Positions 28,555-44,718 of a stretch of DNA of 64,000 bases are shown piece after piece. The number at the start of each line of letters is the position of its first letter. The first letter of the stretch is position 1. The notes below the pieces were generated by a model that saw only the letters and a program-made list of their open reading frames with translations, searched no databases and had not been told where the DNA came from. Both the position numbers and the translations under genes were made by a program. The stretch covers positions 5,742,911 to 5,806,910 of the forward strand of contig NZ_JAUDRJ010000003.1 in NCBI RefSeq assembly GCF_030382115.1, written 5' to 3'. This stretch comes from Nostoc sp. GT001. GTDB lineage: Bacteria; Cyanobacteriota; Cyanobacteriia; Cyanobacteriales; Nostocaceae.

Positions 28555-29334
28555 ATGAATCTACCATTACGGACATTGGGAGTTGCGCCAAATGCGTGGA
28601 CAGTGAATGATGCGATCGCAGATATCACTCGCCCATCAAAGACCCCACAACCCGTTATCTTATCAACAGAAACTAAAACCCTGCGCCTAGACTTGGCAAA
28701 GACTGCTATCCTCGTCATTGATATGCAAAACGACTTCTGTCACCCTGATGGCTGGTTAGCGCATATCGGTGTGGACGTAACTCCGGCGCGTCAGCCTATT
28801 AAACCTTTGAACAACTTACTTCCCGAACTGCGTGAGGTTGGTGTTCCAGTCATTTGGGTAAATTGGGGAAATCGTCCCGACTTGCTCAATATTAGTGCTA
28901 GTTCGCGCCACGTCTATAATCCCACAGGGGAAGGTGTGGGTTTGGGCGATCCACTACCAAGCAATGGTGCTAGAGTACTCATGGCAGGTAGTTGGGCCGC
29001 GGCAGTAGTAGATGAGCTAGAACAGATACCCGAAGATATTCGTGTGGATAAATACCGCATGAGTGGGTTTTGGGATACACCATTAGATAGTATCTTGCGG
29101 AATTTGGGAAGGACAACATTATTTTTTGCTGGTGTTAATGCCGATCAATGTGTGCTAACTACCTTATGTGATGCCAACTTCTTAGGATATGACTGCGTGT
29201 TGGTTAAAGATTGCACCGCCACAACTTCTCCTGAATATTGTTGGCTGGCGACATTGTATAATGTCAAACAATGCTTCGGTTTTGTCACTGACTCGCAAGA
29301 GATTTTAACAGCGCTGCAAAATGGTGAGGAGTGA
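28555..29334 (+). CDS. Isochorismatase-family cysteine hydrolase
   Basis: A 259-residue hydrolase with the full catalytic triad: Asp56 in AILVIDMQNDF, the Lys in VDKYRMSGFWDTPLD, and Cys in FFAGVNADQCVLTTL. The architecture resembles RutB and N-carbamoylsarcosine amidases, which hydrolyse ureido or amide bonds of nucleobase breakdown products. An N-terminal extension of about 45 residues is present. The cupin gene 230 bp downstream is on the same strand and may be a partner. True isochorismate hydrolysis is unlikely without a siderophore or menaquinone context. Confidence 0.87.
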   Translation: MNLPLRTLGVAPNAWTVNDAIADITRPSKTPQPVILSTETKTLRLDLAKTAILVIDMQNDFCHPDGWLAHIGVDVTPARQPIKPLNNLLPELREVGVPVIWVNWGNRPDLLNISASSRHVYNPTGEGVGLGDPLPSNGARVLMAGSWAAAVVDELEQIPEDIRVDKYRMSGFWDTPLDSILRNLGRTTLFFAGVNADQCVLTTLCDANFLGYDCVLVKDCTATTSPEYCWLATLYNVKQCFGFVTDSQEILTALQNGEE

Positions 29335-29566
29335 ATCAATTTTGGATTTTAGATTTTAGATTGATCCCATGCATGAATGCTCTTTCTTTGAGCAAAAATT
29401 TTAGATTTTAGATTTGTTCTCGCGTTTCAATTCGCTTTCTCTGGGATAATTTTAAATTTTGAATTATTCAATCCAAAATTTACAATCTAAAATCTAAAAT
29501 TATGTGATTTAAGACTCAAATTTTAAGAATTTTCATGCCCATCGATAACTCAGAGGGGATAAATAA
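29335..29566. repeat. TTTTAGATT-type repeats
   Basis: Several copies of TTTTAGATTTTAGATT and an inverted ATCTAAAATCTAAAAT run lie between the hydrolase and cupin genes. They can fold back on each other. Confidence 0.6.
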
Positions 29567-30022
29567 ATGTACGCTACTCGTTGTGTAATTCCGGTTATCA
29601 AATCTAGCAAAGATTACCAAGTATATCGCATCAGTCCCGACGCCTCTAATCGATTAGCAATTATCTTCGATTCGACGAATGCTAATACTTCTTTGACTTG
29701 CTGCATAGAAATTTTTGATGTTGGTGGGCAAACACCCCCAAATCGCCATCAGTGGGCGGTGGAAATGTTTTTTGTTCTCAAAGGAGAAGCGATCGCTATA
29801 TGTGATGGCAAGAGTGCCACGATCAAAGCTGGAGATAGTTTATTGGTCCCTCCCACTGGTACTCATTTGATTAAAAATACTGGTTCTACTCGCTTGTACA
29901 CGTTGACTGTGATGATTCCCAATGAAGACTTTTCGGAATTGATTCGCAGTGGGATTCCGGCGGAGTTAGATGAAGAAGATATGGCAGTAATAGGGAGATT
30001 TGATGCTTTGATGCCTTGTTAA
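29567..30022 (+). CDS. Cupin-domain protein
   Basis: A 151-residue single-domain cupin. The metal-binding motif is recognisable as PPNRHQWAVEMFFVLKGEAIA (His and Glu ligands) with the second motif GDSLLVPPTGTHLIKNTG. ATG at 29567 has GAGGGGAT upstream. Small cupins act as dioxygenases, isomerases or sensors, and the reaction here is unknown. Its position after the isochorismatase-type gene suggests a shared pathway. Confidence 0.82.
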   Translation: MYATRCVIPVIKSSKDYQVYRISPDASNRLAIIFDSTNANTSLTCCIEIFDVGGQTPPNRHQWAVEMFFVLKGEAIAICDGKSATIKAGDSLLVPPTGTHLIKNTGSTRLYTLTVMIPNEDFSELIRSGIPAELDEEDMAVIGRFDALMPC

Positions 30023-30482: not shown

Positions 30483-30821
30483 ATGTCTCTTACCGTAGCA
30501 ACTGATCCCATACCTCTATCACCTGATTCTGATGGTGTTGTGCGTGTTAGTAATACTCGCGTAACTCTTGATACTTTAGTTACCGCCTTCTTGGAGGGTG
30601 TTACAGCAGAAGAGATTGTCGAGCAATATCCATCTCTTCAGCTTGCAGATGTGTACTTGGTGATAGGCTACTACCTTCGACGGAAAACTGAAGTTGATGC
30701 TTATCTAAAAATTCGACAAGAGCGTGGCATCCAAGTTCGTCAACAAAATGAGCGTCGTTTCAATCCAATTGGGATACGCGATCGCCTTATGGCAAGACTT
30801 ACCCACCAAGGGCAGAGTTGA
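30483..30821 (+). CDS. DUF433-domain antitoxin
   Basis: A 112-residue protein with the DUF433 helix-turn-helix core (RVSNTRVTLDTLVTAFLEGVTAEEIVEQYPSLQLADVYLVIGYYL). DUF433 proteins are usually the antitoxin and DNA-binding half of a VapBC-like pair with a DUF5615 toxin. That partner starts one base after this stop codon, so the two are translationally coupled. Autoregulation is expected from the family. Confidence 0.88.
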   Translation: MSLTVATDPIPLSPDSDGVVRVSNTRVTLDTLVTAFLEGVTAEEIVEQYPSLQLADVYLVIGYYLRRKTEVDAYLKIRQERGIQVRQQNERRFNPIGIRDRLMARLTHQGQS

Positions 30822-30822
30822 A

Positions 30823-31176
30823 ATGCTGCGCCTTTTAGCAGACGAGAACTTTAACAACCAAATTGTTCGGGGTATTCTTCGACGAAAATCTGAGATTGAT
30901 ATTGTTAGAGTTCAGGATGTAGGTTTGTCCAAAACTGATGATCGAGTCATTCTGGAATGGGCGGCGCAACAGGGCCGGGTTCTATTAACTCATGATGTAG
31001 AAACAATAACTCGATATGCTTACGAGCGTGTACAGGCAGGGTTAACAATGCCAGGGGTATTTGAGATTAGTCGCAGCGTCTCAGTGGGATTGGCAATTGA
31101 AGATATCTTGTTAATCGCGGAGGGAAGTTTTGAGGGCGAATGGGAAGGACAAGTGCAATATCTCCCTCTCCGTTAA
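30823..31176 (+). CDS. DUF5615 PIN-like toxin
   Basis: A 117-residue PIN-like nuclease toxin: MLRLLADENFNNQIV (first acidic cluster), VQDVGLSKTDDRVILEWAAQQGRVLLTHDVETI (second and third acidic clusters, Asp in THD). A longer frame exists from 30724, but the ATG at 30823 removes a non-homologous extension and places the start next to the antitoxin stop. It should degrade RNA when freed from the DUF433 protein. Confidence 0.88.
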   Translation: MLRLLADENFNNQIVRGILRRKSEIDIVRVQDVGLSKTDDRVILEWAAQQGRVLLTHDVETITRYAYERVQAGLTMPGVFEISRSVSVGLAIEDILLIAEGSFEGEWEGQVQYLPLR

Positions 31177-33243: not shown

Positions 33244-34323
33244 TTACTGTCTTTTTGAAATAATTTCCTTAACAACGCCAACAAAGCGTTCCATGTCGGC
33301 TTGGGTAATAGCTCCCATTGTCGAGACTCGAAAGATTGATTGAGCTAAATTCCCCTGTCCAGAATAAATTATATAATCTCGTGCTTTCAGTTGGTCGTGA
33401 AATTCTTCATAGCTGAAACCGTTTGGTAAGTAATAGGCATTCAAGACAACGGATGAACAGCCAAGAGGAAGTAAGGGTTTAATTCCAATTGAGGCTAACC
33501 CGTCTCTAACTAAGCTGGCAAGTTGGTTGTAATGTTTGTGTCTAGCACGCCAACCTCCTGCTTCTGCCATTTCTTGCAAAGCTTCTGTTAAGGCATAAAA
33601 TGTCTGTACTGATTGCGTAAAAGGTGTGCCGCCTCGTTCTTGCTGCTGGTAATAAGTTGCTAAATCTAAATATAAGGTGCGGGGGATTGTGTCTACTGAA
33701 GGCAGTGTATCCCGTCGCAGAATGACAAAAGACGTTCCAGGGACACCATGCAGACATTTATTCGCTGTCGCAGCGCAAGCAGTGATTCCCCAATCTGCAA
33801 AATTTATTTCTTCAGCACCAAAGCTGCTGACTGCATCTACTAATAATTTGATACGGCGTTCTTGGCAAATTGGCGCAAGTTCCGCCAAATTATTTAGGCG
33901 ACCAGTAGTAGTTTCGTGATGGACGATCGCAAGGTGGGTGATGTCGGCGTTTTCATCTAAAAGCTTGACTAAAGCCTTGATATCGATTTCGGCATCCCAA
34001 GGATGGGAAAGTGTGATGTAATCAATGCCGTGGATTTTGGCAATTTTGGATAGTCGTTCCCCATACACACCGTTTTCAATTACTAGTAATTTCCCGTTTG
34101 TGGGTACTAAACTGCTGATCATCGCTTCCATCGCGGCAGTACCAGAACCCGTGAGGAGAACTGCTGCCCAGCCGCTTCCAAGACCATAAACTTGAAGTAG
34201 CTGTTCGCGGATTCTGGTTTGAAGTTGGGAAAATTCCACCTCACGGTGACACAAATCGGGACGCAACAGGGCATTTCTGACGCGATCGCTCAAATTGACG
34301 GGGCCGGGATTTAGTAAAATCAT
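33244..34323 (-). CDS. phnW: 2-aminoethylphosphonate aminotransferase (PhnW type)
   Basis: A 359-residue fold-type I aminotransferase of the PhnW/alanine-glyoxylate group. PLP residues are visible: Asp163 in LVDAVSSFGA and Lys189 in ATANKCLHGVPG, the NKC(L/I)xGVPG segment being typical of PhnW. In this setting it should run from phosphonoacetaldehyde to 2-aminoethylphosphonate (AEP) with an amino donor. The frame has an upstream TTG at 34329, but ATG at 34323 is used. It starts eight bases after the decarboxylase stop, so the two are one operon. Confidence 0.9.
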   Translation of the reverse strand: MILLNPGPVNLSDRVRNALLRPDLCHREVEFSQLQTRIREQLLQVYGLGSGWAAVLLTGSGTAAMEAMISSLVPTNGKLLVIENGVYGERLSKIAKIHGIDYITLSHPWDAEIDIKALVKLLDENADITHLAIVHHETTTGRLNNLAELAPICQERRIKLLVDAVSSFGAEEINFADWGITACAATANKCLHGVPGTSFVILRRDTLPSVDTIPRTLYLDLATYYQQQERGGTPFTQSVQTFYALTEALQEMAEAGGWRARHKHYNQLASLVRDGLASIGIKPLLPLGCSSVVLNAYYLPNGFSYEEFHDQLKARDYIIYSGQGNLAQSIFRVSTMGAITQADMERFVGVVKEIISKRQ

Positions 34324-34331
34324 TACCAAAG

Positions 34332-34360
34332 TTAGGAGTTAGGAGTTAGGAGTTGCCAGT
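34332..34360. repeat. AACTCCT heptamer tandem repeat at the aepY/phnW junction
   Basis: About three to four tandem copies of the heptamer (GGAGTTA on the plus strand) encode the C-terminus and stop codon of the decarboxylase and reach into the eight-base gap before phnW. The same heptamer array lies at 24804-24840. Confidence 0.75.
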
Positions 34361-35516
34361 TAGAACCAATATGGTTCATAAAGCGTTGTAAAACTTCTTC
34401 TGGGGTGAGATTGGGTCTGGGTAGCTTTTCTAAAGTTCCGGGACGGATTTTTAAATGAGCGAATTTAGGTCTGGTGTTAGCATCTGCGGTAAATAAAGTA
34501 TCTAAAAGGGCGGGATCATCTCCGGCTAATGTCACGCCGTAACCGCACGCTTCGGCAATCTTGGCAAAGGAGATACCCGCAGAAACGGTGGCTTGTGCGC
34601 CTGTGGAATCGTGGACTTCATTATCTAAAAGAATATGAGTCAAGTTAGCACCGCCATAAGTGCCGATGGTCGCAAAATTACCCATCCGCATTAATGCTGC
34701 CCCATCGCCATCAATTACTACTACCTTGAGGTCTGGACGCGCTAAGGATAATCCCAATCCCATTGAGGAAGCACAGCCCATCGAGCCGACCATATAAAGA
34801 TGATTGGCGCTGTCTTGACTGGCGAAGAGTTCCCGTCCCGTATATCCGGTGGTGGCAATTATTACAGTGTTTTCTGGATCGGTAAGTTCCACAATCCTAG
34901 CTAATGCTTCACTGCGAGAAACGCGTTGTTCTTTGTTATCCCGAAAAAAGCTTTGCTGAATATGAGCGCTAGCACTATTTTCTCGTTCGGGGATAGAAGA
35001 ACGGCTGAGGGCATGGGGGGCGATCGCTCCTTTACGCATGATTAAAGCATAAGGACAGCGCTCTTGTTGCATATAGGCTGTGGCTCTTTGCAAAACGGGT
35101 TCTATTTGTGCTACATCTGTGGGAAAAAATTCCCAAGGTATAGTCATTGTTTGCAGCAATTTCTCTGTGATTTGCCCCATTAATTGATGTTGCGGTTCAT
35201 CTTGCAATACGCGATCGCCTCTTAAAGTACAAATCAGCAACAGTGGAATCCGAAAGATATAAGTGAGGGAGGTTAGTGGGTTAACTGCATTCCCCAAACC
35301 AGAGTTTTGCATCATCACTACTGCGGGTTTACCAGCAATTGCGGCTCCAGCTGCGATCGCTACAGCATCTCCCTCATTGGCTGCGGAGATATATTTAAGT
35401 TGAACGTCATTGATGACGTAGTTAATAAAAGGCGTGAGAAAAGAACAGGGTACGCCAGTGTACCACTCAAAGCCAAGATGACGCGCAGCTTCTACAAATT
35501 CTTCTGCCTGGATCAT
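34332..35516 (-). CDS. aepY: Phosphonopyruvate decarboxylase
   Basis: A 394-residue thiamine-diphosphate enzyme that removes CO2 from phosphonopyruvate to give phosphonoacetaldehyde, the step that pulls the unfavourable PEP mutase reaction forward. It starts with the family GVPCSFLTPFINYV, has Glu48 in AANEGDAVAIAAG (cofactor activation) and the GDGAALMRMGN...LLDN ThDP/Mg motif. The last residues (QLLTPNS) and the stop codon are encoded by a heptamer repeat array. Downstream of the PEP mutase gene, upstream of phnW. Confidence 0.93.
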   Translation of the reverse strand: MIQAEEFVEAARHLGFEWYTGVPCSFLTPFINYVINDVQLKYISAANEGDAVAIAAGAAIAGKPAVVMMQNSGLGNAVNPLTSLTYIFRIPLLLICTLRGDRVLQDEPQHQLMGQITEKLLQTMTIPWEFFPTDVAQIEPVLQRATAYMQQERCPYALIMRKGAIAPHALSRSSIPERENSASAHIQQSFFRDNKEQRVSRSEALARIVELTDPENTVIIATTGYTGRELFASQDSANHLYMVGSMGCASSMGLGLSLARPDLKVVVIDGDGAALMRMGNFATIGTYGGANLTHILLDNEVHDSTGAQATVSAGISFAKIAEACGYGVTLAGDDPALLDTLFTADANTRPKFAHLKIRPGTLEKLPRPNLTPEEVLQRFMNHIGSNWQLLTPNS

Positions 35517-35520
35517 ATTA

Positions 35521-35660
35521 AGTGATGGGGGGAGCAGGGGAGCAGGGGAGCAGGGGAGCAGGGGGGGCAGGGGAAAAGGTTAAAGGGAAAAGGGAAAAGG
35601 AATAAATTTAATCTTTCCCCTTTTCCCCTTACCCTTTCCCCATGCCCCATGCCCAATGCC
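35521..35660. repeat. GGGGAGCA tandem repeat and A/G-C/T inverted run
   Basis: GGGGAGCA is repeated about four times. It is followed by AAAGGGAAAAGGG and its inverse TTTCCCCTTTTCCCC, which can form a long hairpin between aepX and aepY. The array may attenuate or process the operon transcript. Confidence 0.65.
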
Positions 35661-35673
35661 CAATGCCCCACTC

Positions 35674-37329
35674 CTATTGTTTTAATTGAAAAGCAAGGTC
35701 AAGATCGTCCAAAGAATTAACATCTAACCAGTTACCGCGAATATAAAGCACCTTGATCGGTTTGCCTTGCTCGATTAAATAATTGCATAATTCTGGTAAA
35801 CCCAGACTGTTAAATTCCGGTCGTTTTTGCAATTCATTGAGTGCTTCACTCACCCACTCTCTACCTTGACTCCGCAAGCGCAACATCCCAATCCAGCGGC
35901 CGCTAGACTTTCTTAATTGCGTTTGTGTCGTTTTAGAAACGTTCAACAGGTTGACATCCTGTCCAAACAAAGAAAGATCGTCTGGAATTGAACAATAGGC
36001 GTAGTCAGGTGAACCGCTAACAGACTTGTTGTTGGCTACAGAATCAACCACAGCCACAATTTCTCCGGGACATTCTAATAAATCCCGCAGGATGTAGCTT
36101 CTAAATAGTAAATCGCCGTAAAGCACCAGCATTTCTTCGCCAAAACTGGCTTGAGCTACGGCTAAGGATGCTAATTCTCCCGTTGTTTCATAATCTGGGT
36201 TGCGGATGACTTTAGTCCCCGGAACATTGATAGTTTCTGCTTTGTAACCTACGACAACGGTAATATCATTGATAGCAAGTTTCTTGAATTTGTCTACCAA
36301 TAACCTGAGTAAAGGTTTACCGCCAAGGGGTAACATCACCTTTGGTTTATCTTGCGTCAACCCTGCTAATTCTTGTCCTCTGCTAGCAGCCAGAACGATC
36401 GCTTGGGTATTTTGTCGTCCGTTGTTAAAGTAGCGTTTTTCAGCTTCTATGAGTTCATCCGCGCCCTGTAGCCGGAAAATTTCTTTTACGGGTGCAATAT
36501 CATCTTCAATGTTGATTAAAGTTTCGCTGGCTTTCACTTCACGTGCGATCGCTTGCATACTAGCAACAGCAGCTCGAATCAGATGGTTTGCCCAGATGAC
36601 CAAATTAACTTCAGCTTTGCGAAAAACATCAGTAGGTGTGCTGTAATATTTGGTCGGTATAAACACTAACGGAGAACGACCCCCCCATTCTTTAGCAAAG
36701 GCTAGCACTTGATCGGGGCGCGATGATTTACTGTGAATCAAGATCGCGGTTGCTCCAGCGGCGTGGTAAGCTTCAGCTCGGCGCAAAGCCTCCGAAAGAT
36801 CCCAGCCTACAATCAAAGCTTCGAGTCGGGCGACGATGCAAAAATCTGGATCTGTCTGACTATCCTTACCCGCCTTAATTTTGCCGCAGAATTCATCAAT
36901 TTCAGCCAAAGGTTGGCGACTACCGTTGATAAAGCTATTGGTTTTGGGAAAAAGCTTATCTTCAATACAGACTCCAGCGATTCCTCGCTGTTCTAACTTC
37001 TTAACTAGGCGACGCATATTATTAAAGTTGCCATAACCTGTATCGCCGTCTAATAAAATCGGGATGCTGGTGACATCAGACATGAACTCTAGCATTTCTA
37101 CAACTTGAGTCCAACTGGCTTCATTATTATCTCGAACGCCATACTGAGCCGAAAGGGCTAATCCACTCGCCCAAATTCCTTTAAATCCAGCCTCTTCCAC
37201 AATCCGGGCGCTAATCCCATTGTGAGCTTCCATGATGAAGTCGAGTTGAGGCGATTCTAGTAATAACCTTAATTGGGCACATTTATTTAATTTTGCAGAG
37301 GTATCATTGGGTGCAAATATTGGATGCAT
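35674..37329 (-). CDS. aepX: Phosphoenolpyruvate mutase fused to a nucleotidyltransferase domain
   Basis: A 551-residue fusion. Residues 1-300 are PEP mutase (isocitrate-lyase superfamily), which makes the C-P bond by turning PEP into phosphonopyruvate. DGDTGYG (94-100) and EDKLFPKTN (123-131) give the EDKx5N signature separating true mutases from relatives. Residues 308-551 are a sugar-phosphate-nucleotidyltransferase fold like PntC, the CTP:phosphonate cytidylyltransferase. Its nucleotide loop reads LAASRGQEL rather than LAAGxGxRL, so the usual Gly and Arg are altered and the domain may be weak or inactive. [13 protein letters not shown] is intact. It is the first core enzyme of the cluster. 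Confidence 0.93.
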
Positions 37330-37367
37330 TTATTCTGCTTTTTTCAACCTATAGTAATAATGAAAGA

Positions 37368-37554
37368 AGAATTCAGAAGTCAGAATTCAGAATCAATTAC
37401 TGGGAGATTCAAAATCGTCACTATATTTTGAACCACTAAATCAGATATTTAATGGGTATTTTCAACCCCTTGATTCACCCACTAGTAGCAAATATTCATA
37501 CTGACTCCTGACTCACCTCGACTGCGCTCGGCGACCACCTGACTCCTGAATTCT
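37368..37554. repeat. MITE-like element with AGAATTCAGGAGTCAG ends (copy 1)
   Basis: Ends AGAATTCAGAAGTCAG (37368-37383) and CTGACTCCTGAATTCT (37539-37554) are inverted with one mismatch. The last 47 bases (37508-37554) are identical to 46761-46807. It fills the gap between the nucleotidyltransferase and aepX genes. Confidence 0.75.
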
Positions 37555-37567
37555 TTAAAAGATATTT

Positions 37568-38323
37568 TCAGACATTTTCTGCGACTTCTATCTGAGGTAA
37601 AATATCATTTTGGGCACGTTGAATATCCTGGGGAAAATCTATTTCGAGCCAAGGTAATCCAGTAATGTCTTCGTAGCCAAATGTTTCTGGAGTTTCTAAT
37701 AATAGATCCCGAATTACTTCTTCATAAGGTTCATTATCCCGTCCGTCTGCAACATACTGTTCTGTACGAGTAGCAAGACGGTGAGCAACAGCACTTCCAA
37801 AACGAAAGAATCCCACTGACTCACCTAAAAAATCATAAGCTAAACCAGGAGCTACTTGTTTACGAAACTCCACTAGATAATTATCTCTAACACAAAGCTT
37901 CACGGGTTCATCTCCCGGTTCAAAATCTCGATCTAATAAGAAGCTGTTGGGGATATTTGTCTTTATCAATCGTTCGATGATACGGCGATCGCACAATACA
38001 TCTGCATCCATTAATAATATGTCATCGCCAGCAACTAAATGCTGACGTACAGTCCAAAGGCTGATTGTACTGCCTTTGGTGTAGTCAGGATTGTAAATTG
38101 TACTGACCCAACTTTCGGCTCCTAATGCTTTGATTTCATCCTGAATTCTTTGTGCTTGATAACCCACAGCAATCACTACTTCATCAATTTGGTAATGACG
38201 GAGATAGTGAAAATGCCGCTCTAGTAGGGATTTGCCGTTAAATTTCAGTAAGCATTTGGGTTGGATTTGCCCGTCTTTACCTAAGCGTCGTCCAACGCCA
38301 GCAGCTAAGATAATTGCCTTCAT
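37568..38323 (-). CDS. Nucleotidyltransferase, PntC/LicC-like
   Basis: A 251-residue stand-alone nucleotidyltransferase with an intact nucleotide loop (ILAAGVGRRLG, PKCLLKFNGKSLLERH at about 24-39) and metal-binding DADVL mid-protein. Among relatives, LicC activates phosphocholine with CTP and PntC activates 2-aminoethylphosphonate with CTP. Placed between the PEP mutase and the CDP-alcohol phosphotransferase genes, it is the best candidate to make CMP-AEP, especially since the loop of the fused domain in AepX is altered. Start at the ATG 38323 just after an earlier one at 38329. Confidence 0.82.
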   Translation of the reverse strand: MKAIILAAGVGRRLGKDGQIQPKCLLKFNGKSLLERHFHYLRHYQIDEVVIAVGYQAQRIQDEIKALGAESWVSTIYNPDYTKGSTISLWTVRQHLVAGDDILLMDADVLCDRRIIERLIKTNIPNSFLLDRDFEPGDEPVKLCVRDNYLVEFRKQVAPGLAYDFLGESVGFFRFGSAVAHRLATRTEQYVADGRDNEPYEEVIRDLLLETPETFGYEDITGLPWLEIDFPQDIQRAQNDILPQIEVAENV

Positions 38324-38571
38324 CGTCAAATCACCAACAGTAGCTTAGACACCAGTAAATCTGGAAATTTTCCCAGTATTTTATAATGACTGTTTTTTGC
38401 TCAAGATAATATTTGTTAATTAATTCTTAACATTGAAGAAACAGTAACTCTGTGGTAAAGTTTGTAACCATTGAATAATACTAGAGTACCAGGAGTCGAG
38501 GAGAGCGATCGCATTTCCATCTACCGTTCTGGAATATCTTTGTAAAGTTCATCTAGCTTCAAAATGTTATA

Positions 38572-40209
38572 TTAAAACGCCTGTTGTAGTTGTTCAGATG
38601 TTAGCGATTTAATCAAACTTAACGGTAGTGGTTGCTGACTAATTGTATTAACATAATCTGTACTCAAATAGGGAAGGTAACTTGGCTGTTGAGTAACATA
38701 GTTTTCAAAAAAGGGAACACTTAAAGCTTTAACATAATGACGTGCCAAAGCCGGACTTGAACCGATTACCCGTGTAGGAACAGGTATGGTTCCATTTGGT
38801 GATTCTGCAATAGTAGAAAAGTGTGTACCGCCCTGGATAAGTGCTAAAAATTTATTTGGAGTTGTTAACCAAGTGAAAGGCTGAATTTGTTCTATTAAAG
38901 CCGGAGCAACAGTATCAGAACTGCCAGATACAATCATCACGGGAATTTTTATTTGGCTGAGGCTAGCTTGACCAAAAATACTGCTATCAACTGGATTAAC
39001 TGCAATTGCTGCTTTTATTCTTACATCAGATAAGTTGTATTCAGCTTGTGGTAAATTTACTGCTAAACACTGAAGTAAAAGCGAAATATTTAACGTATTT
39101 TCCAAAGCTGGACAGTCAACTTTCAATTGCTCAAAATTAATCTTTGCACCTGCTAATGCTAATGCTGTATACCCACCAAATGATTGTCCGATTATACCAA
39201 TTTTCTCTAAATTTAAATTCCCCTGAAATGCTGGATTAGACTTTGATAAACCAGTTAATTCGTCTAGTAAGAATTTAATATCTAAAGGTCTGTCAATAAG
39301 TTCTCTAGGATTGGTCACTCTATGTGCTGTACCTGATAATAATGCTTGCAGTTGTTTTGAATCACTGCCAGGATGTTCTGGAACAGCAACTACAAAACCA
39401 TAAGAAGCCAGATGTTCGGCTAGATAAGCAAAACTTCTTCTGTCAGAACCAAGTCCGTGCGAAATGACAATTATCGGACGAGGAGTTTCAGCAATTGGAA
39501 GGTAAATATCGACTGGAAAAATCCGATCGCGCGAGAGGTCTTTAAGTGTGATAGTTTGCTTTAAGAAACGAGAAGTTCCGGTTTTTCCTAAATCCATCAA
39601 TGGAACAATATTAAGTGTAGAAGCAGTAGTTGTCTTTTGTTGGGATTGTTGGTTAATAAGTGCTACTGATTTTTGAGTTTGATTGACTAAATTATGCAAT
39701 GTTTCTGCAATTGCCAAACCCTGGTCTAAATTAATTGAAATTGCGCTCACAGGAAACTTGTGTAATACATTTAAAAGCGTAAAATCTTTTTGATCTGCGG
39801 CTGACAAAATCAGTGCTGCACGAATTGCATAAAATCCTGACAATCTAGATTCTGTTTGAATAACTTCCCCCATCTTTTTTAATAATTCTTCACCAATTGG
39901 TGTATAAAGAAACTGCGAAACTTCTACTTTATTTAAAGGAATAGGAGTTAGTAAAAGTTTTCGCAGTTGAGTTAGTTCTTTTTTATTTACATACTGAGTA
40001 TATCCAGCCAAATCATCGTCTATTTTGCCTGTTCTAGCATAAGTTTCGAGCGAACTAATTGGGATAGACCTTTCTAAAAGACCGTAATTAAATCTTAGGC
40101 GCTCTGCACCTAAAGCGGGGTAAGCAGTTAGTGTAGGCAGCAACCCGATACTAAAAATTCTCAAAGCCAATTTTAGCGAAACAGTTTGTTTGCGTATAAA
40201 ATGAGTCAT
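38572..40209 (-). CDS. Secreted DUF1400 alpha/beta hydrolase (lipase-like)
   Basis: A 545-residue exported protein with a signal peptide ending near AYPALGA (about 28-34), an N-terminal DUF1400 helical domain (about 35-200) and a PAF-acetylhydrolase-like alpha/beta-hydrolase domain. The oxyanion segment is VISHGLGSDRR, the nucleophile Ser is in GQSFGGYTAL, and GGTHFS supplies the likely catalytic His. The family is cyanobacterial and probably cleaves ester lipids in the periplasm. AAGAGG seven bases before ATG supports the start. It interrupts the phosphonate genes in the same direction, so a lipid substrate is plausible. Confidence 0.85.
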   Translation of the reverse strand: MTHFIRKQTVSLKLALRIFSIGLLPTLTAYPALGAERLRFNYGLLERSIPISSLETYARTGKIDDDLAGYTQYVNKKELTQLRKLLLTPIPLNKVEVSQFLYTPIGEELLKKMGEVIQTESRLSGFYAIRAALILSAADQKDFTLLNVLHKFPVSAISINLDQGLAIAETLHNLVNQTQKSVALINQQSQQKTTTASTLNIVPLMDLGKTGTSRFLKQTITLKDLSRDRIFPVDIYLPIAETPRPIIVISHGLGSDRRSFAYLAEHLASYGFVVAVPEHPGSDSKQLQALLSGTAHRVTNPRELIDRPLDIKFLLDELTGLSKSNPAFQGNLNLEKIGIIGQSFGGYTALALAGAKINFEQLKVDCPALENTLNISLLLQCLAVNLPQAEYNLSDVRIKAAIAVNPVDSSIFGQASLSQIKIPVMIVSGSSDTVAPALIEQIQPFTWLTTPNKFLALIQGGTHFSTIAESPNGTIPVPTRVIGSSPALARHYVKALSVPFFENYVTQQPSYLPYLSTDYVNTISQQPLPLSLIKSLTSEQLQQAF

Positions 40210-40411
40210 TACATACCTCTTAAAATAGTATATTAACGGTTAAGGAGAGCGATCGCGTTTCTGCTAATCAATGGCTGCTATAGCTTTAGCAATTTCCGTT
40301 TGAAGCTCCATTGATAATTCGATCCTGATATCAGGATTGCAAAAATAAACATACCATTCAATAAAGCTAAAAAGCCTGTTTTATTAGCTTCCTGCCCAAT
40401 GCCCCGTTAGA

Positions 40412-41017
40412 TTAGTTTGATTCCGGCTGCGGGAGTGTCCAAAATTGCCAAATTACCCATACTGCAAAGGTTGGCGCTCCAATTGTTGCTGCCATTAATA
40501 ACGGCTCTAGTCCATTTAGTAAGGTAACTATGGGAAACAAATACAGCACGTCTTCAATGTCAAACCCGGCGAAATTTGGTTGACGGCTGGCGTCTTTACC
40601 TAAACGTTGTTCCATTTGGTTTCGCAAATGAAAGATGCAAGCAACAGACACGCCAGATACTATCCCCATCACCAACGCCCACCAACCAAATTTTCCCTCT
40701 CTAAGACCATATCCAATACACACAAACAATAGAATATGGATGATGGCGTCACTAACAAGGTCATATTGATGTCCCCATTTGCTGCTTTTTCCACTCAAAC
40801 GGGCTAATTCACCGTCTGTATGATCGAGAAAGTTAGATAAAGCAAATAGCCATGCCCCAATGTTAACCCAAATGGTATTACCAACTGCGAGGGCAACAGC
40901 CGCCGCCAACCCTGTCAAAAGTCGCACTGTAGTAAGATGATTGGGGTTTACCCAACTGTCTTTTAGAGGTCGAACTAGCCAGTAAGCAAGTTGAGCATCC
41001 CAAGGCTTTGTGGTCAT
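40412..41017 (-). CDS. CDP-alcohol phosphotransferase
   Basis: A 201-residue membrane enzyme with the complete CDP-alcohol phosphotransferase motif DHTDGELAR-x8-GHQYDLVSD: Asp65, Asp68, Gly69, Ala72, Arg73, Gly82, Asp86, Asp90. Five to six TM segments are present. Enzymes of this family transfer a phospho-alcohol from a CDP (or CMP) carrier to a lipid alcohol. In a phosphonate cluster it should accept CMP-AEP and produce an AEP-headgroup lipid, by analogy with ethanolamine phosphotransferase. The frame opens at 41083, but ATG at 41017 fits the family start. Confidence 0.87.
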   Translation of the reverse strand: MTTKPWDAQLAYWLVRPLKDSWVNPNHLTTVRLLTGLAAAVALAVGNTIWVNIGAWLFALSNFLDHTDGELARLSGKSSKWGHQYDLVSDAIIHILLFVCIGYGLREGKFGWWALVMGIVSGVSVACIFHLRNQMEQRLGKDASRQPNFAGFDIEDVLYLFPIVTLLNGLEPLLMAATIGAPTFAVWVIWQFWTLPQPESN

Positions 41018-41103
41018 AGATGAACTTGAATTTGATATGGTCTTTGAATATTCATAGCACTGTAAATTACCACAGCCTCTCAATACCTATTTTACTTGTG
41101 ACG

Positions 41104-42759
41104 TTAACTACGAACTTTGGTGAGAATTTTTTGGGAATAAAACGAAGCTGATTCTTCATTTTTGGCGCAATCTTGGGCAAACTTAATCAAATGATGTCCG
41201 ACAAGTCCAACGTGAATCAAGTTTTCAATATTACCTGCTTTCAATGCTGGCTTGGCCATTTTCCAGAAAGTCTGACGATAGTTACTAAATACGCCTATCC
41301 GCAGCAAAATATTAGCTAAATAAGTTAGACCCTTGCGAATATTAGCCCCAGAAGTGCGAGATGGGCTGTTAGGAACTTCGATGCGATTTGGATAGGTGTG
41401 TTCCATATTGTAGGCAAATCGCTGATATAAAAATTCTGGCTCATAAGCAGTTGTGATGCAGCGCCGCCACATCTCAACAACTTGCTCGTAGGGCATTAAA
41501 AACTCAACATTTGATTCGCGGCTTTCATCATAGACAAGTCGTCCTTCTGCTTCTAATCTCCGCCATAATGGAGTTCTCGGCAACGCATGAAGCAGGTTAA
41601 TTGTCAACATGGGAATTTGCGATGCCCGCATAAATTCGATTATTCGGTCTGCTGTTTCTGGTGTATCTGTATCTAACCCGATAATGATTCCTGATACTAC
41701 TTCCATGCCATAACTATTTAAAACCTGAATCGCTTTTAAAATCGGCATACTCAGATTTTGGTCTTTGGAAATCGCATGGAGAGCATTTGGTTCAGGTGTT
41801 TCGATGCCACAAAAGATTGTGCAAAAATAAGCTTCGCGCATCATTTCCAAAAGCTTTGGACTTTGAGCTAAGTTGAGCGTTGCTTCACAGGCAAACTGGA
41901 TGGGATAACCATTGCGTTTTTGCCAGTCAATCAGGTGAGGAAGTAACTTCATGGCGGCGCGGCGATCGCCAACAAAGTTATCATCGACAAAATACACTGC
42001 CCCCAAATTGCCAGATTGTCGCATTGCATCTAACTCCGCAACTACTTGCTCTGGCGTTTTCATCCGGGGACTGTTGCCATAGAGTTCGGGAATATCGCAA
42101 AACTCGCAATGATAAGGGCAACCACTAGAAAACTGGACATTTGCCAAGAAATAATCATTGATATTCAGCAAATGATAAGCTGGGGTGGGAAACTCTGTTA
42201 AGGGTAAACGTTCCTTAGTTTCAAAGCGAATTTGTTGTTGCGGACGTTGAGAGTTTTGGTCGAGATATTCGATCATGCGATCGCTAGCATCTCCCAATTC
42301 GCCCAAGTGTAAAATATCAAACTCAGGATAATATTCTGGACACCCAGATACCGAGGGGCCGCCCACAACGGTAATTTTCCCCGCTCGATGGGCAAGTTCG
42401 TTAATTTGATTAATTTGTGGTTTTTGGATATGCATTCCACTCACAATCACCACATCAGCCCATTGATAATCAGCCCTCGTTGCTGATTTGACATTCTCAT
42501 CAATAAACCGCACTTCCCATTCTTTAGGTAAGTAGGCAGCCACAATTAAAATACCTTGGGGTGGCATAAAAGCCCGGACACTACCCATAAGTGGGTAAGC
42601 ATGATGAAAAGTACCAAAGGAGCGGCTGTACTTGGGAAAAATACACAGAATGCGTCGATGGTGCGAAGGAACGTAGCGGGTTCCTTGAGTGACAGAAGCG
42701 GTTTGAGAATTGTCGGCTACATTAATTTGGTTCTCTAAAGACTTTAAATTCACAGTCAT
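41104..42759 (-). CDS. hpnP: B12-binding radical SAM methylase, HpnP-like
   Basis: A 551-residue protein with an N-terminal cobalamin-binding Rossmann domain (about 35-180), a radical SAM core with CxxxCxxC in SSGCPYHCEFCDI (Cys214, Cys218, Cys221) and a C-terminal DUF4070 region. The long stretch HAYPLMGSVRAFMPPQG, the VSGMHIQ segment and the phrase GIETPEPNALHAISKDQN agree with my recollection of HpnP, which methylates hopanoids at C-2. A phosphonate methylase (Fom3/PhpK-like) cannot be excluded by eye and would suit the neighbours. TTG at 42792 is an alternative start. First gene of the minus-strand run. Confidence 0.68.
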   Translation of the reverse strand: MTVNLKSLENQINVADNSQTASVTQGTRYVPSHHRRILCIFPKYSRSFGTFHHAYPLMGSVRAFMPPQGILIVAAYLPKEWEVRFIDENVKSATRADYQWADVVIVSGMHIQKPQINQINELAHRAGKITVVGGPSVSGCPEYYPEFDILHLGELGDASDRMIEYLDQNSQRPQQQIRFETKERLPLTEFPTPAYHLLNINDYFLANVQFSSGCPYHCEFCDIPELYGNSPRMKTPEQVVAELDAMRQSGNLGAVYFVDDNFVGDRRAAMKLLPHLIDWQKRNGYPIQFACEATLNLAQSPKLLEMMREAYFCTIFCGIETPEPNALHAISKDQNLSMPILKAIQVLNSYGMEVVSGIIIGLDTDTPETADRIIEFMRASQIPMLTINLLHALPRTPLWRRLEAEGRLVYDESRESNVEFLMPYEQVVEMWRRCITTAYEPEFLYQRFAYNMEHTYPNRIEVPNSPSRTSGANIRKGLTYLANILLRIGVFSNYRQTFWKMAKPALKAGNIENLIHVGLVGHHLIKFAQDCAKNEESASFYSQKILTKVRS

Positions 42760-43098: not shown

Positions 43099-44718
43099 AT
43101 GAATTTGATTTACTTTCTTTTGCGTTCTTCGTGGGGGATGGTAGCGATCGCGATCGCTACCGGATTTTTGAGTGGTGGTAGTAGTGCTGGCTTGATTGCC
43201 TTAATTAGCCATGCTGCAAGTAGCGGTAGTTCTTCCCGCCTCACATCGATAATTTGGGGTTTTGCGGGGCTGGCTATAGTTGCACTAATTACCAGTATCG
43301 TTTCTCAAGTGATGCTGATTCGCCTTTCTCAGAATGCAGTTTTACAATTACGGATGCGTTTAAGTCGCCAGATTCTCGCTTCCGAGTTGAGTCATCTGGA
43401 ACGCTTAGGTAATCCTCGATTATTGGCTACTTTAACAGAAGATATTCAGGCGGTGGCTAATGCTGTTTATCAGATGCCTTTCATCTTTATTAATTTAGCG
43501 ATCGTCTTGGGTTGTATAACCTATATAACCTGGCTTTCTTGGTTAGTATTGCTGATGGTTTGTGGGATTTCAGTAGTTGCGATCGCTAGTTGTCAGTGGC
43601 TACTAAACAGAGGCGGGCAATTACTTACTTTAGCTCGTGAAGATGAAGATCATCTGTTTAAACATTTTCGCACGATTACCGAAGGAGTCAAGGAACTCAA
43701 ACTCAACTACAAGCGGCGTGAAGACTTTTTAGAAGACAAACTACAATTAACTGCTAACGAGTTTCGTCATCACAACGTTAATGGTCTAAGCCTTTTTGCC
43801 ATAACTTCAAGTTGGGGTCAACTCATATTCTTTTTTGCTCTCGGTTTTGTACTGTTTATACTGCCTAATCTGCTTACTATCAATCCCGAAACTCTCTCTG
43901 GCTACATTTTGACCTTCACTTACTTGGTGTTACCAATGGATAACATCATCAGTAAACTTCCTCTATTAAGCAAAGCCAGCATTGCTTTACAAAAAATTGA
44001 GTCACTGGGTTTATCTCTAGCTAGTCGAACGGAAATATCCACTGTTCCACCTGCTCTGAAATCTGACTGGTATAGGTTAAAATTTCAAAGTGTCACCCAC
44101 ACTTATTACACAGAGCAAGAAGACAATAGCTTTATTTTTGGCCCCATCGATTTGACACTTTATCCTCAAGAATTGGTCTTCATTGTCGGCGGTAATGGTA
44201 GCGGTAAATCTACATTAGCCAAACTAATTACTGGGCTTTATATCGCAGAAAACGGCGAAATCTGGTTTGATGACGAGTTAATTAGCGAACAGAATCGAGA
44301 ATGGTATCGCCAACATTTTTCCGTGGTTTTTTCCGACTTCTATTTATTTGAAGAACTTCTAGGATTAAAAAATTCTCACTTGGATGCTCAAGCCAGAAAA
44401 TATTTACAAAAACTGCAACTAGACCATAAAGTGAAAGTTGAAAATGGACAAATTTCTACCACTGCTCTTTCTCAAGGACAACGAAAACGGCTAGCTTTAC
44501 TCACAGCCTACTTGGAAGATCGACCAATTTATCTATTTGATGAGTGGGCAGCCGATCAAGATCCAGTATTCAAAGAAATATTCTACACTCAACTTCTTCC
44601 AGAATTGCGATCGCGGGGTAAAACAGTACTGGTGATTAGCCATGACGATCACTATTTTCATTTAGCAGACCGAATTATCAAACTTGACTATGGAAAAATA
44701 GAGTACGATAAAGCTTAA
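43099..44718 (+). CDS. Cyclic-peptide-type ABC exporter (fused permease-ATPase)
   Basis: A 539-residue half-transporter: about six TM segments (1-300), then an ATPase with Walker A GGNGSGKST (about 364-372), signature LSQGQRKR and Walker B PIYLFDEWAADQDP. LSQGQ and DEWAADQDP instead of LSGGQ and DEATSALD are typical of the SyrD/PvdE cyclic peptide and siderophore exporters. It faces away from the phosphonate island and could export a product of it or of an unlinked synthetase. The small membrane gene downstream is probably in the same transcript. Confidence 0.88.
   Translation: MNLIYFLLRSSWGMVAIAIATGFLSGGSSAGLIALISHAASSGSSSRLTSIIWGFAGLAIVALITSIVSQVMLIRLSQNAVLQLRMRLSRQILASELSHLERLGNPRLLATLTEDIQAVANAVYQMPFIFINLAIVLGCITYITWLSWLVLLMVCGISVVAIASCQWLLNRGGQLLTLAREDEDHLFKHFRTITEGVKELKLNYKRREDFLEDKLQLTANEFRHHNVNGLSLFAITSSWGQLIFFFALGFVLFILPNLLTINPETLSGYILTFTYLVLPMDNIISKLPLLSKASIALQKIESLGLSLASRTEISTVPPALKSDWYRLKFQSVTHTYYTEQEDNSFIFGPIDLTLYPQELVFIVGGNGSGKSTLAKLITGLYIAENGEIWFDDELISEQNREWYRQHFSVVFSDFYLFEELLGLKNSHLDAQARKYLQKLQLDHKVKVENGQISTTALSQGQRKRLALLTAYLEDRPIYLFDEWAADQDPVFKEIFYTQLLPELRSRGKTVLVISHDDHYFHLADRIIKLDYGKIEYDKA

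Follow-up and report, generated by a model that had tools for sequence, protein, structure and literature searches.

The conversion of phosphoenolpyruvate (PEP) to 2-aminoethylphosphonate (AEP) by PEP mutase (PepM), phosphonopyruvate decarboxylase (Ppd) and an AEP aminotransferase (AEPT) is established chemistry of these enzyme families, and hopanoids are bacterial analogues of cholesterol and a source of molecular fossils. Activation of AEP by the cytidylyltransferase PntC has been established for the Pnt pathway (Rice et al. 2019, PMC6697681), in which a PepM fused to a nucleotidyltransferase (NTP) domain is accompanied by a separate nucleotidyltransferase; there the acceptor is presumed to be a carbohydrate or a lipid, the steps after AEP are called enigmatic, and neither 'hopan' nor 'CDP-alcohol' occurs in the main text. 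Clusters of lichen-associated Nostoc were published in 2018 (BMC Genomics, PMC5987646) as phosphonolipid clusters, the legend of Fig. 7 listing CDP-APT, OG-Fe(II), NTPT, pepM, ppd and AEPT; 'hopan' is absent from its main text, and the legend mentions hpnL, calling it no more than a putative membrane protein. A 2021 survey of the Acetobacteraceae (PMC8776678) links PepM to hopene cyclase in hybrid clusters of Roseomonas, for which an 'undiscovered terpene-phosphonate' is suggested; as far as the available text goes, it covers one family, leaves the joining enzyme unnamed and makes no connection to cyanobacteria or to hpnP. Here we analyse a stretch of 64,000 nt from Nostoc sp. GT001 (NZ_JAUDRJ010000003.1, positions 5,742,911 to 5,806,910; GCF_030382115.1), referred to below as the window, in which a phosphonate cassette follows an orthologue of hpnP, the gene of the hopanoid C-2 methylase. 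We propose, with a probability of roughly 0.6, that this cluster makes a hopanoid with a phosphonate headgroup, the acceptor being suggested by gene neighbourhoods.

The host genome measures 7.9 Mb in 6 contigs, and its PepM is 97-98% identical to that of several Nostoc genomes, including the lichen strain 210A (97%; PMC5987646, locus L029 below). As a preliminary description of this DNA had reported, positions 33244-42759 hold seven genes, all on the minus strand and of the families named there. They are transcribed in the order B12/radical-SAM/DUF4070, CDP-alcohol phosphotransferase (CDPAPT), DUF1400 hydrolase, nucleotidyltransferase, PepM-NTP fusion, Ppd and AEPT, and are listed here together with two remnants of a 2-oxoglutarate (2OG) oxygenase gene:

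41104..42759, minus strand: hpnP orthologue (B12-binding / radical SAM / DUF4070; putative hopanoid C-2 methylase), from Pfam domains, identity and context
40412..41017, minus strand: CDPAPT (Pfam, motif and fold), proposed AEP transferase to a hopanoid
40257..40357, minus strand: 5' remnant of a HalD-like 2OG-Fe(II) oxygenase gene (101 bases, 89% identical to nt 1-100 of its L029 counterpart)
38572..40209, minus strand: DUF1400 alpha/beta hydrolase, interloper between the remnants (PF07176, 146 bits)
38443..38552, minus strand: 3' remnant of that oxygenase gene (110 bases, 87% identical to nt 509-618 of its L029 counterpart)
37568..38323, minus strand: stand-alone PntC-like nucleotidyltransferase, proposed CTP:AEP cytidylyltransferase (PDB match 6pd1, E 8.2e-9)
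35674..37329, minus strand: PEP mutase fused to an NTP_transf_3 domain (TIGR02320, 383.7 bits)
34332..35516, minus strand: Ppd (TIGR03297, 453.0 bits)
33244..34329, minus strand: AEPT (TIGR03301, 429.1 bits)

Compared with the lichen Nostoc clusters, the window has its 2OG gene broken and a DUF1400 gene in its place. Compared with known HpnP genes, its methylase gene is orthologous by identity, domain make-up and hpn context, but it precedes a phosphonate cassette instead of lying within an hpn operon. No component is of a new kind; what would be new is the predicted product and the coupling of the cassette to hpnP. Among the matches listed in a search of titles and abstracts of the open-licence literature there was no report of a phosphonohopanoid, nor, among the matches listed, any paper uniting the Nostoc cluster, PntC activation and the PepM-hopene cyclase hybrids.

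Specifically, all three enzymes assigned to AEP synthesis in the preliminary description exceeded their curated NCBIfam cut-offs (319.6 bits for PepM, 312.5 for Ppd and 360.8 for AEPT, against the scores given in the list), and PepM carries EDKxxxxxNS, the Ppm-specific motif (PMC6697681). By the motif and the three cut-offs the locus belongs to the phosphonate (PepM) biosynthetic clusters, and the production of AEP by PepM, Ppd and the transaminase is well supported at the level of sequence families. The two nucleotidyltransferase domains noted earlier, one stand-alone and one fused to PepM, both match Pfam NTP_transf_3. For the stand-alone enzyme the best PDB match is PntC of Treponema denticola (6pd1; 38.6 bits, nearly full length), with LicC (1jyk) a close second (38.0 bits, shorter match), and of 74 sequences (window included) 73-74 share its residues G13, R15, K25, D108, D110, E203, E229 and D231. 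E203, present in all 74, aligns to Glu196 of PntC, described as an amine-binding residue (PMC6697681), while D108 aligns to PntC Glu104 and is an Asp there as in LicC; the residues bearing on preference for AEP or phosphocholine are thus mixed. Given the NTP_transf_3 match, PntC as nearest solved relative and the conserved catalytic residues, the stand-alone enzyme is likely a member of the PntC family, with AEP as its putative substrate. The signature Arg is retained in this enzyme and missing from the PepM-fused domain, for which reason the former is the likelier AEP cytidylyltransferase. Along with the missing Arg, Q319/E320 of the fused domain vary among 81 sequences (window included), P329, K330, D536, N538 and D542 being invariant, which suggests an altered or another activity.

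The following enzyme, CDPAPT, matches Pfam CDP-OH_P_transf with 62.5 bits and carries D-x2-DG-x2-AR-x8-G-x3-D-x3-D, the CDP-alcohol phosphotransferase motif, in complete form, as already noted for this gene. Its structure model (pLDDT 91.2) has AF2299 and DIPP synthase as the nearest solved folds, so that both motif and membrane fold place it in the CDP-alcohol phosphotransferase family. In the DIPP synthase reaction a free hydroxyl receives a CDP-activated polar group, and the polarity proposed here, with CMP-AEP as donor and a hopanoid hydroxyl as acceptor, is the same.

CDPAPT follows one PepM lineage closely. At E 1e-20 it was found in 12 of 388 genomes of the cyanobacterial order, exactly the 12 whose PepM-NTP is full-length and of this lineage (71-100% identity). 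Eight further genomes match PepM at E 1e-40, and CDPAPT was found in none of them; six carry another PepM-NTP lineage (53-57%), one a distant PepM and one (G295) a truncated PepM. The nominal probability of this co-occurrence is 5e-23, or 2e-9 by genera, the 12 genomes representing five genera and their kinship inflating the nominal figure. In a set of 80 PepM-NTP loci (35 cyanobacterial and 45 proteobacterial, many of the latter from metagenome bins), CDPAPT was detected at E 1e-10 in 48 of the 50 core-positive genomes searched (35/35 cyanobacterial, 13/15 proteobacterial), several of the proteobacterial ones only as a subtype with 37-45% identity. Similarly, in 15 of 72,556 plasmid records PepM is matched along 80% or more of the query (114 have any match), and CDPAPT occurs in the same 15. 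By this pattern of co-occurrence, CDPAPT is dedicated to this phosphonate lineage.

These data bear on two further uses of the activated phosphonate. AEP might decorate a glycan of the cell surface, or a composite hopanoid at its sugar, by the Lic/Pnt logic, CDPAPT then performing another lipid step. PntC logic has been described for glycans (PMC6697681), and the glycosyltransferases HpnI and HpnB lie near some loci; the strict co-occurrence of CDPAPT with the PepM lineage argues against this, and of the 145 neighbour groups the ~20 to which family models gave a name include no recognisable LicD-like gene, so that we consider such decoration improbable. A similarly slim chance is given to CDP-diacylglycerol as the donor of CDPAPT, whereby a phosphatidyl group would be joined to a hydroxylated phosphonate or a hopanoid and CMP-AEP would be used otherwise: this would fit the enzyme family, yet the 2OG gene whose product could hydroxylate AEP is broken in the window where CDPAPT is intact, and the PntC-like gene is present in 74 of the 80 loci.

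Two side observations concern CDPAPT genes elsewhere. In three loci (L162, L164, L166), HpnL-HpnI-HpnJ is followed by a second CDPAPT subtype (LDRADGELAR), with a less similar CDP-alcohol phosphotransferase (26-28% identity) close by in divergent orientation. In G295 the cluster (L114, contig C13) is decaying, with PepM reduced to its C-terminal third and hpnP kept, and CDPAPT was not found in that genome by the E 1e-20 search. In a tree of 42 CDPAPTs with PgsA, good support was confined to 12 of the 40 inner branches and PgsA sat at the end of a very long one; the tree was used for subtypes only.

The nature of the acceptor is suggested by what surrounds the cassette. At least one of HpnA, HpnB, HpnG, HpnH, HpnI, HpnJ, HpnL, HpnM, HpnN or SHC lies within the fetched flanks of 49 of the 80 PepM-NTP loci, and a hopanoid gene including hpnP in 58; where at least 9 kb are available on both sides, the latter count is 34 of 42 (16/21 + 18/21). 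The representatives of HpnA, HpnB, HpnH, HpnI, HpnJ, HpnM and HpnN exceed their curated cut-offs, other members being assigned by BLAST to the representatives, and absence of a family from the VIA-align list carries no weight. No hopanoid gene was found in the six loci of the other PepM-NTP lineage, and five of those six genomes have a strong HpnH match. The arrangements differ: hpnP, HpnI and HpnJ may lie upstream, HpnJ-HpnI downstream, or HpnH-HpnA downstream, and proteobacterial orders include squalene synthase-HpnG-HpnN-CDPAPT-HpnA-HpnL-2OG-PntC-PepM-Ppd-AEPT (for example L099) and the core followed by dxs-HpnH-HpnB-HpnM-MlaA. Since the hopanoid link recurs in differing gene orders, a single frozen accident is unlikely.

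In addition, the link extends to CDPAPT genes that were not seen next to the core. Among 20 such regions, some of them on short contigs where the distance to the core is not fixed, an hpn gene is present in 10 (L147, L154, L157-L159, L161, L162, L164-L166), hpnP in seven (L147-L150, L152-L154) and either in 15. Ten hpn proteins from these regions were checked: HpnI of L147, L154 and L162, HpnJ of L147 and L162, HpnA of L158 and HpnL of L165 exceed the cut-off, and HpnG of L157, HpnL of L159 and HpnA of L161 fall below it. Plasmids give the same picture, with hpnH in 14 of the 15 core-positive records vs 31 of 72,556 overall. On p1318-3 of Roseomonas marmotae, PntC, aepX, aepY, an LPG-synthase-like (HpnL-like) gene, a transaminase gene and CDPAPT are followed by ispH, hpnH, a hopanoid-associated phosphorylase gene (hpnG), shc, hpnE, hpnD, hpnC and hpnA; on pBRH01 of Mycetohabitans rhizoxinica, CDPAPT, a 2OG oxygenase gene, an LPG-synthase-like gene, PntC, aepX, aepY, AEPT and dxs are followed by genes for an MMPL transporter, ispH, hpnH and hpnA. 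Because CDPAPT lies inside or beside hpn genes, also apart from phosphonate genes, its acceptor is likely a hopanoid. The host genome itself encodes a hopanoid pathway, SHC scoring 970.3 bits (cut-off 431.1) and HpnH 553.5 bits (cut-off 225.05).

The proposed route would thus comprise three steps. PEP would be converted to AEP by PepM, Ppd and the transaminase, a step well supported by the enzyme families; AEP and CTP would give CMP-AEP through the stand-alone cytidylyltransferase, as its likeness to PntC suggests; and CDPAPT would pass the AEP group of CMP-AEP on to a C35 hopanoid polyol at one of its hydroxyls, a step for which fold, co-occurrence and neighbourhood speak. The polyol would come from SHC, HpnH and further enzymes encoded at other places in the genome; hpnP lies directly upstream on the strand of the cassette, and its product could methylate this hopanoid at C-2. 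The 2OG oxygenase of relatives, whose gene is broken in the window, may hydroxylate AEP or the hopanoid.

The main rival acceptor has to be weighed here, namely diacylglycerol: CDPAPT would transfer AEP from CMP-AEP to it, giving a phosphono analogue of phosphatidylethanolamine, and hopanoid genes would be near through joint control of membrane-lipid genes. The CDPAPT fold family would allow diacylglycerol acceptance, and the lichen Nostoc clusters, too, were read as phosphonolipid clusters (PMC5987646). Set against this, hopanoid genes recur across arrangements and phyla and follow CDPAPT away from phosphonate genes, no glycerolipid enzyme was recognised among the ~20 named representatives of neighbour groups, and the nearest folds are AF2299 and DIPP synthase, not choline enzymes; we therefore regard a diacylglycerol acceptor as unlikely. 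Of the earlier proposal of CTP activation and transfer to a lipid, the lipid-like acceptor holds up, by families, motifs and the strict co-occurrence of CDPAPT with the PepM lineage, whereas an ordinary phospholipid acceptor is disfavoured by hpn neighbourhoods shared across phyla. Likewise, the adjacency of the HpnP-like gene, described as an unusual neighbour of a phosphonolipid pathway, stands, but the gene no longer looks like an odd bystander, since the comparison suggests a hopanoid acceptor.

Several observations weigh against a hopanoid acceptor. In the host genome only hpnP is adjacent to the cassette, HpnH and SHC being encoded megabases away on the same contig. The gene hpnP is no obligatory part of the cassette, a role we rejected on finding two cassette-positive genomes (G023 and G280, apparently within the genomes drawn) absent from the 46 hpnP matches, and 40 of the 46 hpnP-positive genomes have no CDPAPT. 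HpnH is common in the order (218/388 genomes over the cut-off), so that its presence in all 12 cassette genomes is only mildly informative (P ~0.0009 before kinship). No hopanoid gene was found in eight of the 42 well-flanked loci (22 of 80 in all, many of them short) or in five of the 20 separate CDPAPT regions (L151, L155, L156, L160, L163). The control set is small (n=6), two of its loci having loosely related genes nearby (an other-group DUF4070 gene in L106, PhyH in L110), and the representatives of HpnG, HpnL and squalene synthase score below their curated cut-offs. Among the plasmids, four Burkholderia records have hpnH on the replicon of aepX but at a great distance from it, and the one core-positive record without hpnH is from Cupriavidus, where a scan of open reading frames (ORFs) in the region (25.7 kb, no annotated features) revealed the phosphonate set with an HpnL-like gene and no hpnH. 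Finally, gene neighbourhood cannot separate a hopanoid acceptor from a glycerolipid under the same control.

Beyond the window, we extend the hopanoid proposal, at even odds, to the whole portable set of CDPAPT, 2OG oxygenase, PntC, PepM-NTP, Ppd and AEPT in cyanobacteria and alpha-, beta- and gammaproteobacteria: it would make phosphonohopanoids, a new lipid class, and in Nostoc, where it lies behind hpnP, the product would be 2-methylated and carry a non-hydrolysable C-P headgroup. With a transferase dedicated to the pathway and an acceptor predicted for it, one step after AEP becomes testable. If the acceptor is indeed a hopanoid, a charged, phosphatase-resistant headgroup would be added to the known hopanoid headgroups, a C-P signal would be predicted in the lipid fraction, where it has perhaps not been sought, and hpnP, the 2-methylhopane biomarker gene, would be tied to a specific polar lipid in some cyanobacteria. 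With a phosphonohopanoid class, 2-methylhopanoids, from which a widely used molecular fossil derives, would gain a concrete biochemical partner.

As to hpnP itself, its product contains the Pfam domains B12-binding, Radical_SAM and DUF4070 and a CxxxCxxC motif (CPYHCEFC), the make-up of HpnP. It shares 53-58% identity over 511-553 residues with 16 DUF4070 proteins of Pseudomonadota, which come from 16 of 388 sampled genomes. HpnH exceeds its cut-off in each of these 16, and in 10 the gene lies within 19 kb of hpnH. At E 1e-130, hpnP was found in 46 of 366 genomes of the cyanobacterial order, and in every one of them HpnH is matched at E 1e-162 or better. Around 20 hpnP loci in CDPAPT-free genomes (G295 with its truncated PepM among them), HpnH, HpnA, HpnI or HpnJ is nearby in nine (L234-L236, L239, L240, L242, L243, L246, L247). 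By identity and hpn context, which uphold the homology to HpnP noted earlier, the radical-SAM gene is the hpnP orthologue of this genome, as judged against this group of Pseudomonadota proteins (group A) rather than against characterised HpnP, and its product could methylate hopanoids at C-2. No HpnP model appeared among the NCBIfam matches of the product.

Other assignments were considered for this gene family. A PhpK-type phosphonate P- or C-methylase was rejected: PhpK heads the NCBIfam matches, but its score is 74.7 bits vs a cut-off of 600, and the gene tracks hopanoid genomes and occurs without CDPAPT in the 40 genomes counted above. The other two DUF4070 genes of the genome (L003, L004), with 33-36% identity, belong to another group.

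The DUF1400 gene, earlier counted as a lipase-like hydrolase of the cluster, turned out to be a non-conserved interloper. Its product matches Pfam DUF1400 and an alpha/beta hydrolase domain, and in relatives such as L029 its slot is occupied by the HalD-like 2OG-Fe(II) oxygenase gene, the two remnants of which flank it here (40357-40257 and 38552-38443). Another copy of the oxygenase gene was not found in the host genome at E 0.001, the 3' remnant being the sole match. The 80 related loci (L026-L105) yielded no DUF1400 homologue in their ORFs, and on these grounds a role as a pathway hydrolase was rejected. One cassette-negative hpnP locus (L240) has a 44% identical DUF1400 gene ~6 kb from hpnP, and there may be a looser link of DUF1400 to hpnP.

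The flanks of the cluster include the following features:

43099..44718, plus strand: divergent ABC transporter adjoining hpnP (TIGR01194, 497.6 bits)
28555..30022, plus strand: isochorismatase-like and cupin genes, the left flank marking the cassette-free site in cassette-negative genomes of the same genus

In three such genomes (L228-L230), the cupin gene lies 855, 442 and 189 bases after hpnP and is followed by the isochorismatase gene; judging from these junctions, the cassette behaves in this genus as a presence/absence block just downstream of hpnP. The ABC transporter gene also adjoins hpnP in three of the 20 cassette-negative loci (L234, L239, L245), and a 125-aa fragment of it lies beside hpnP in L228. 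It tracks hpnP rather than the phosphonate genes and is a candidate hopanoid exporter.

Upstream of the core in proteobacterial loci (L064-L104), a glucose-6-phosphate isomerase gene is present in 24 of 45 and a Ser/Thr kinase gene with a cNMP domain in 21 of 45. Within the window, the intergenic stretch between pepM and ppd (35517-35673) contains short low-complexity repeats, by eye GGGGCATTGGGCAT-like and CCCCTGCT-like. At 30483-31176, genes with the Pfam domains DUF433 and DUF5615 overlap, which we take to have the look of a toxin-antitoxin pair.

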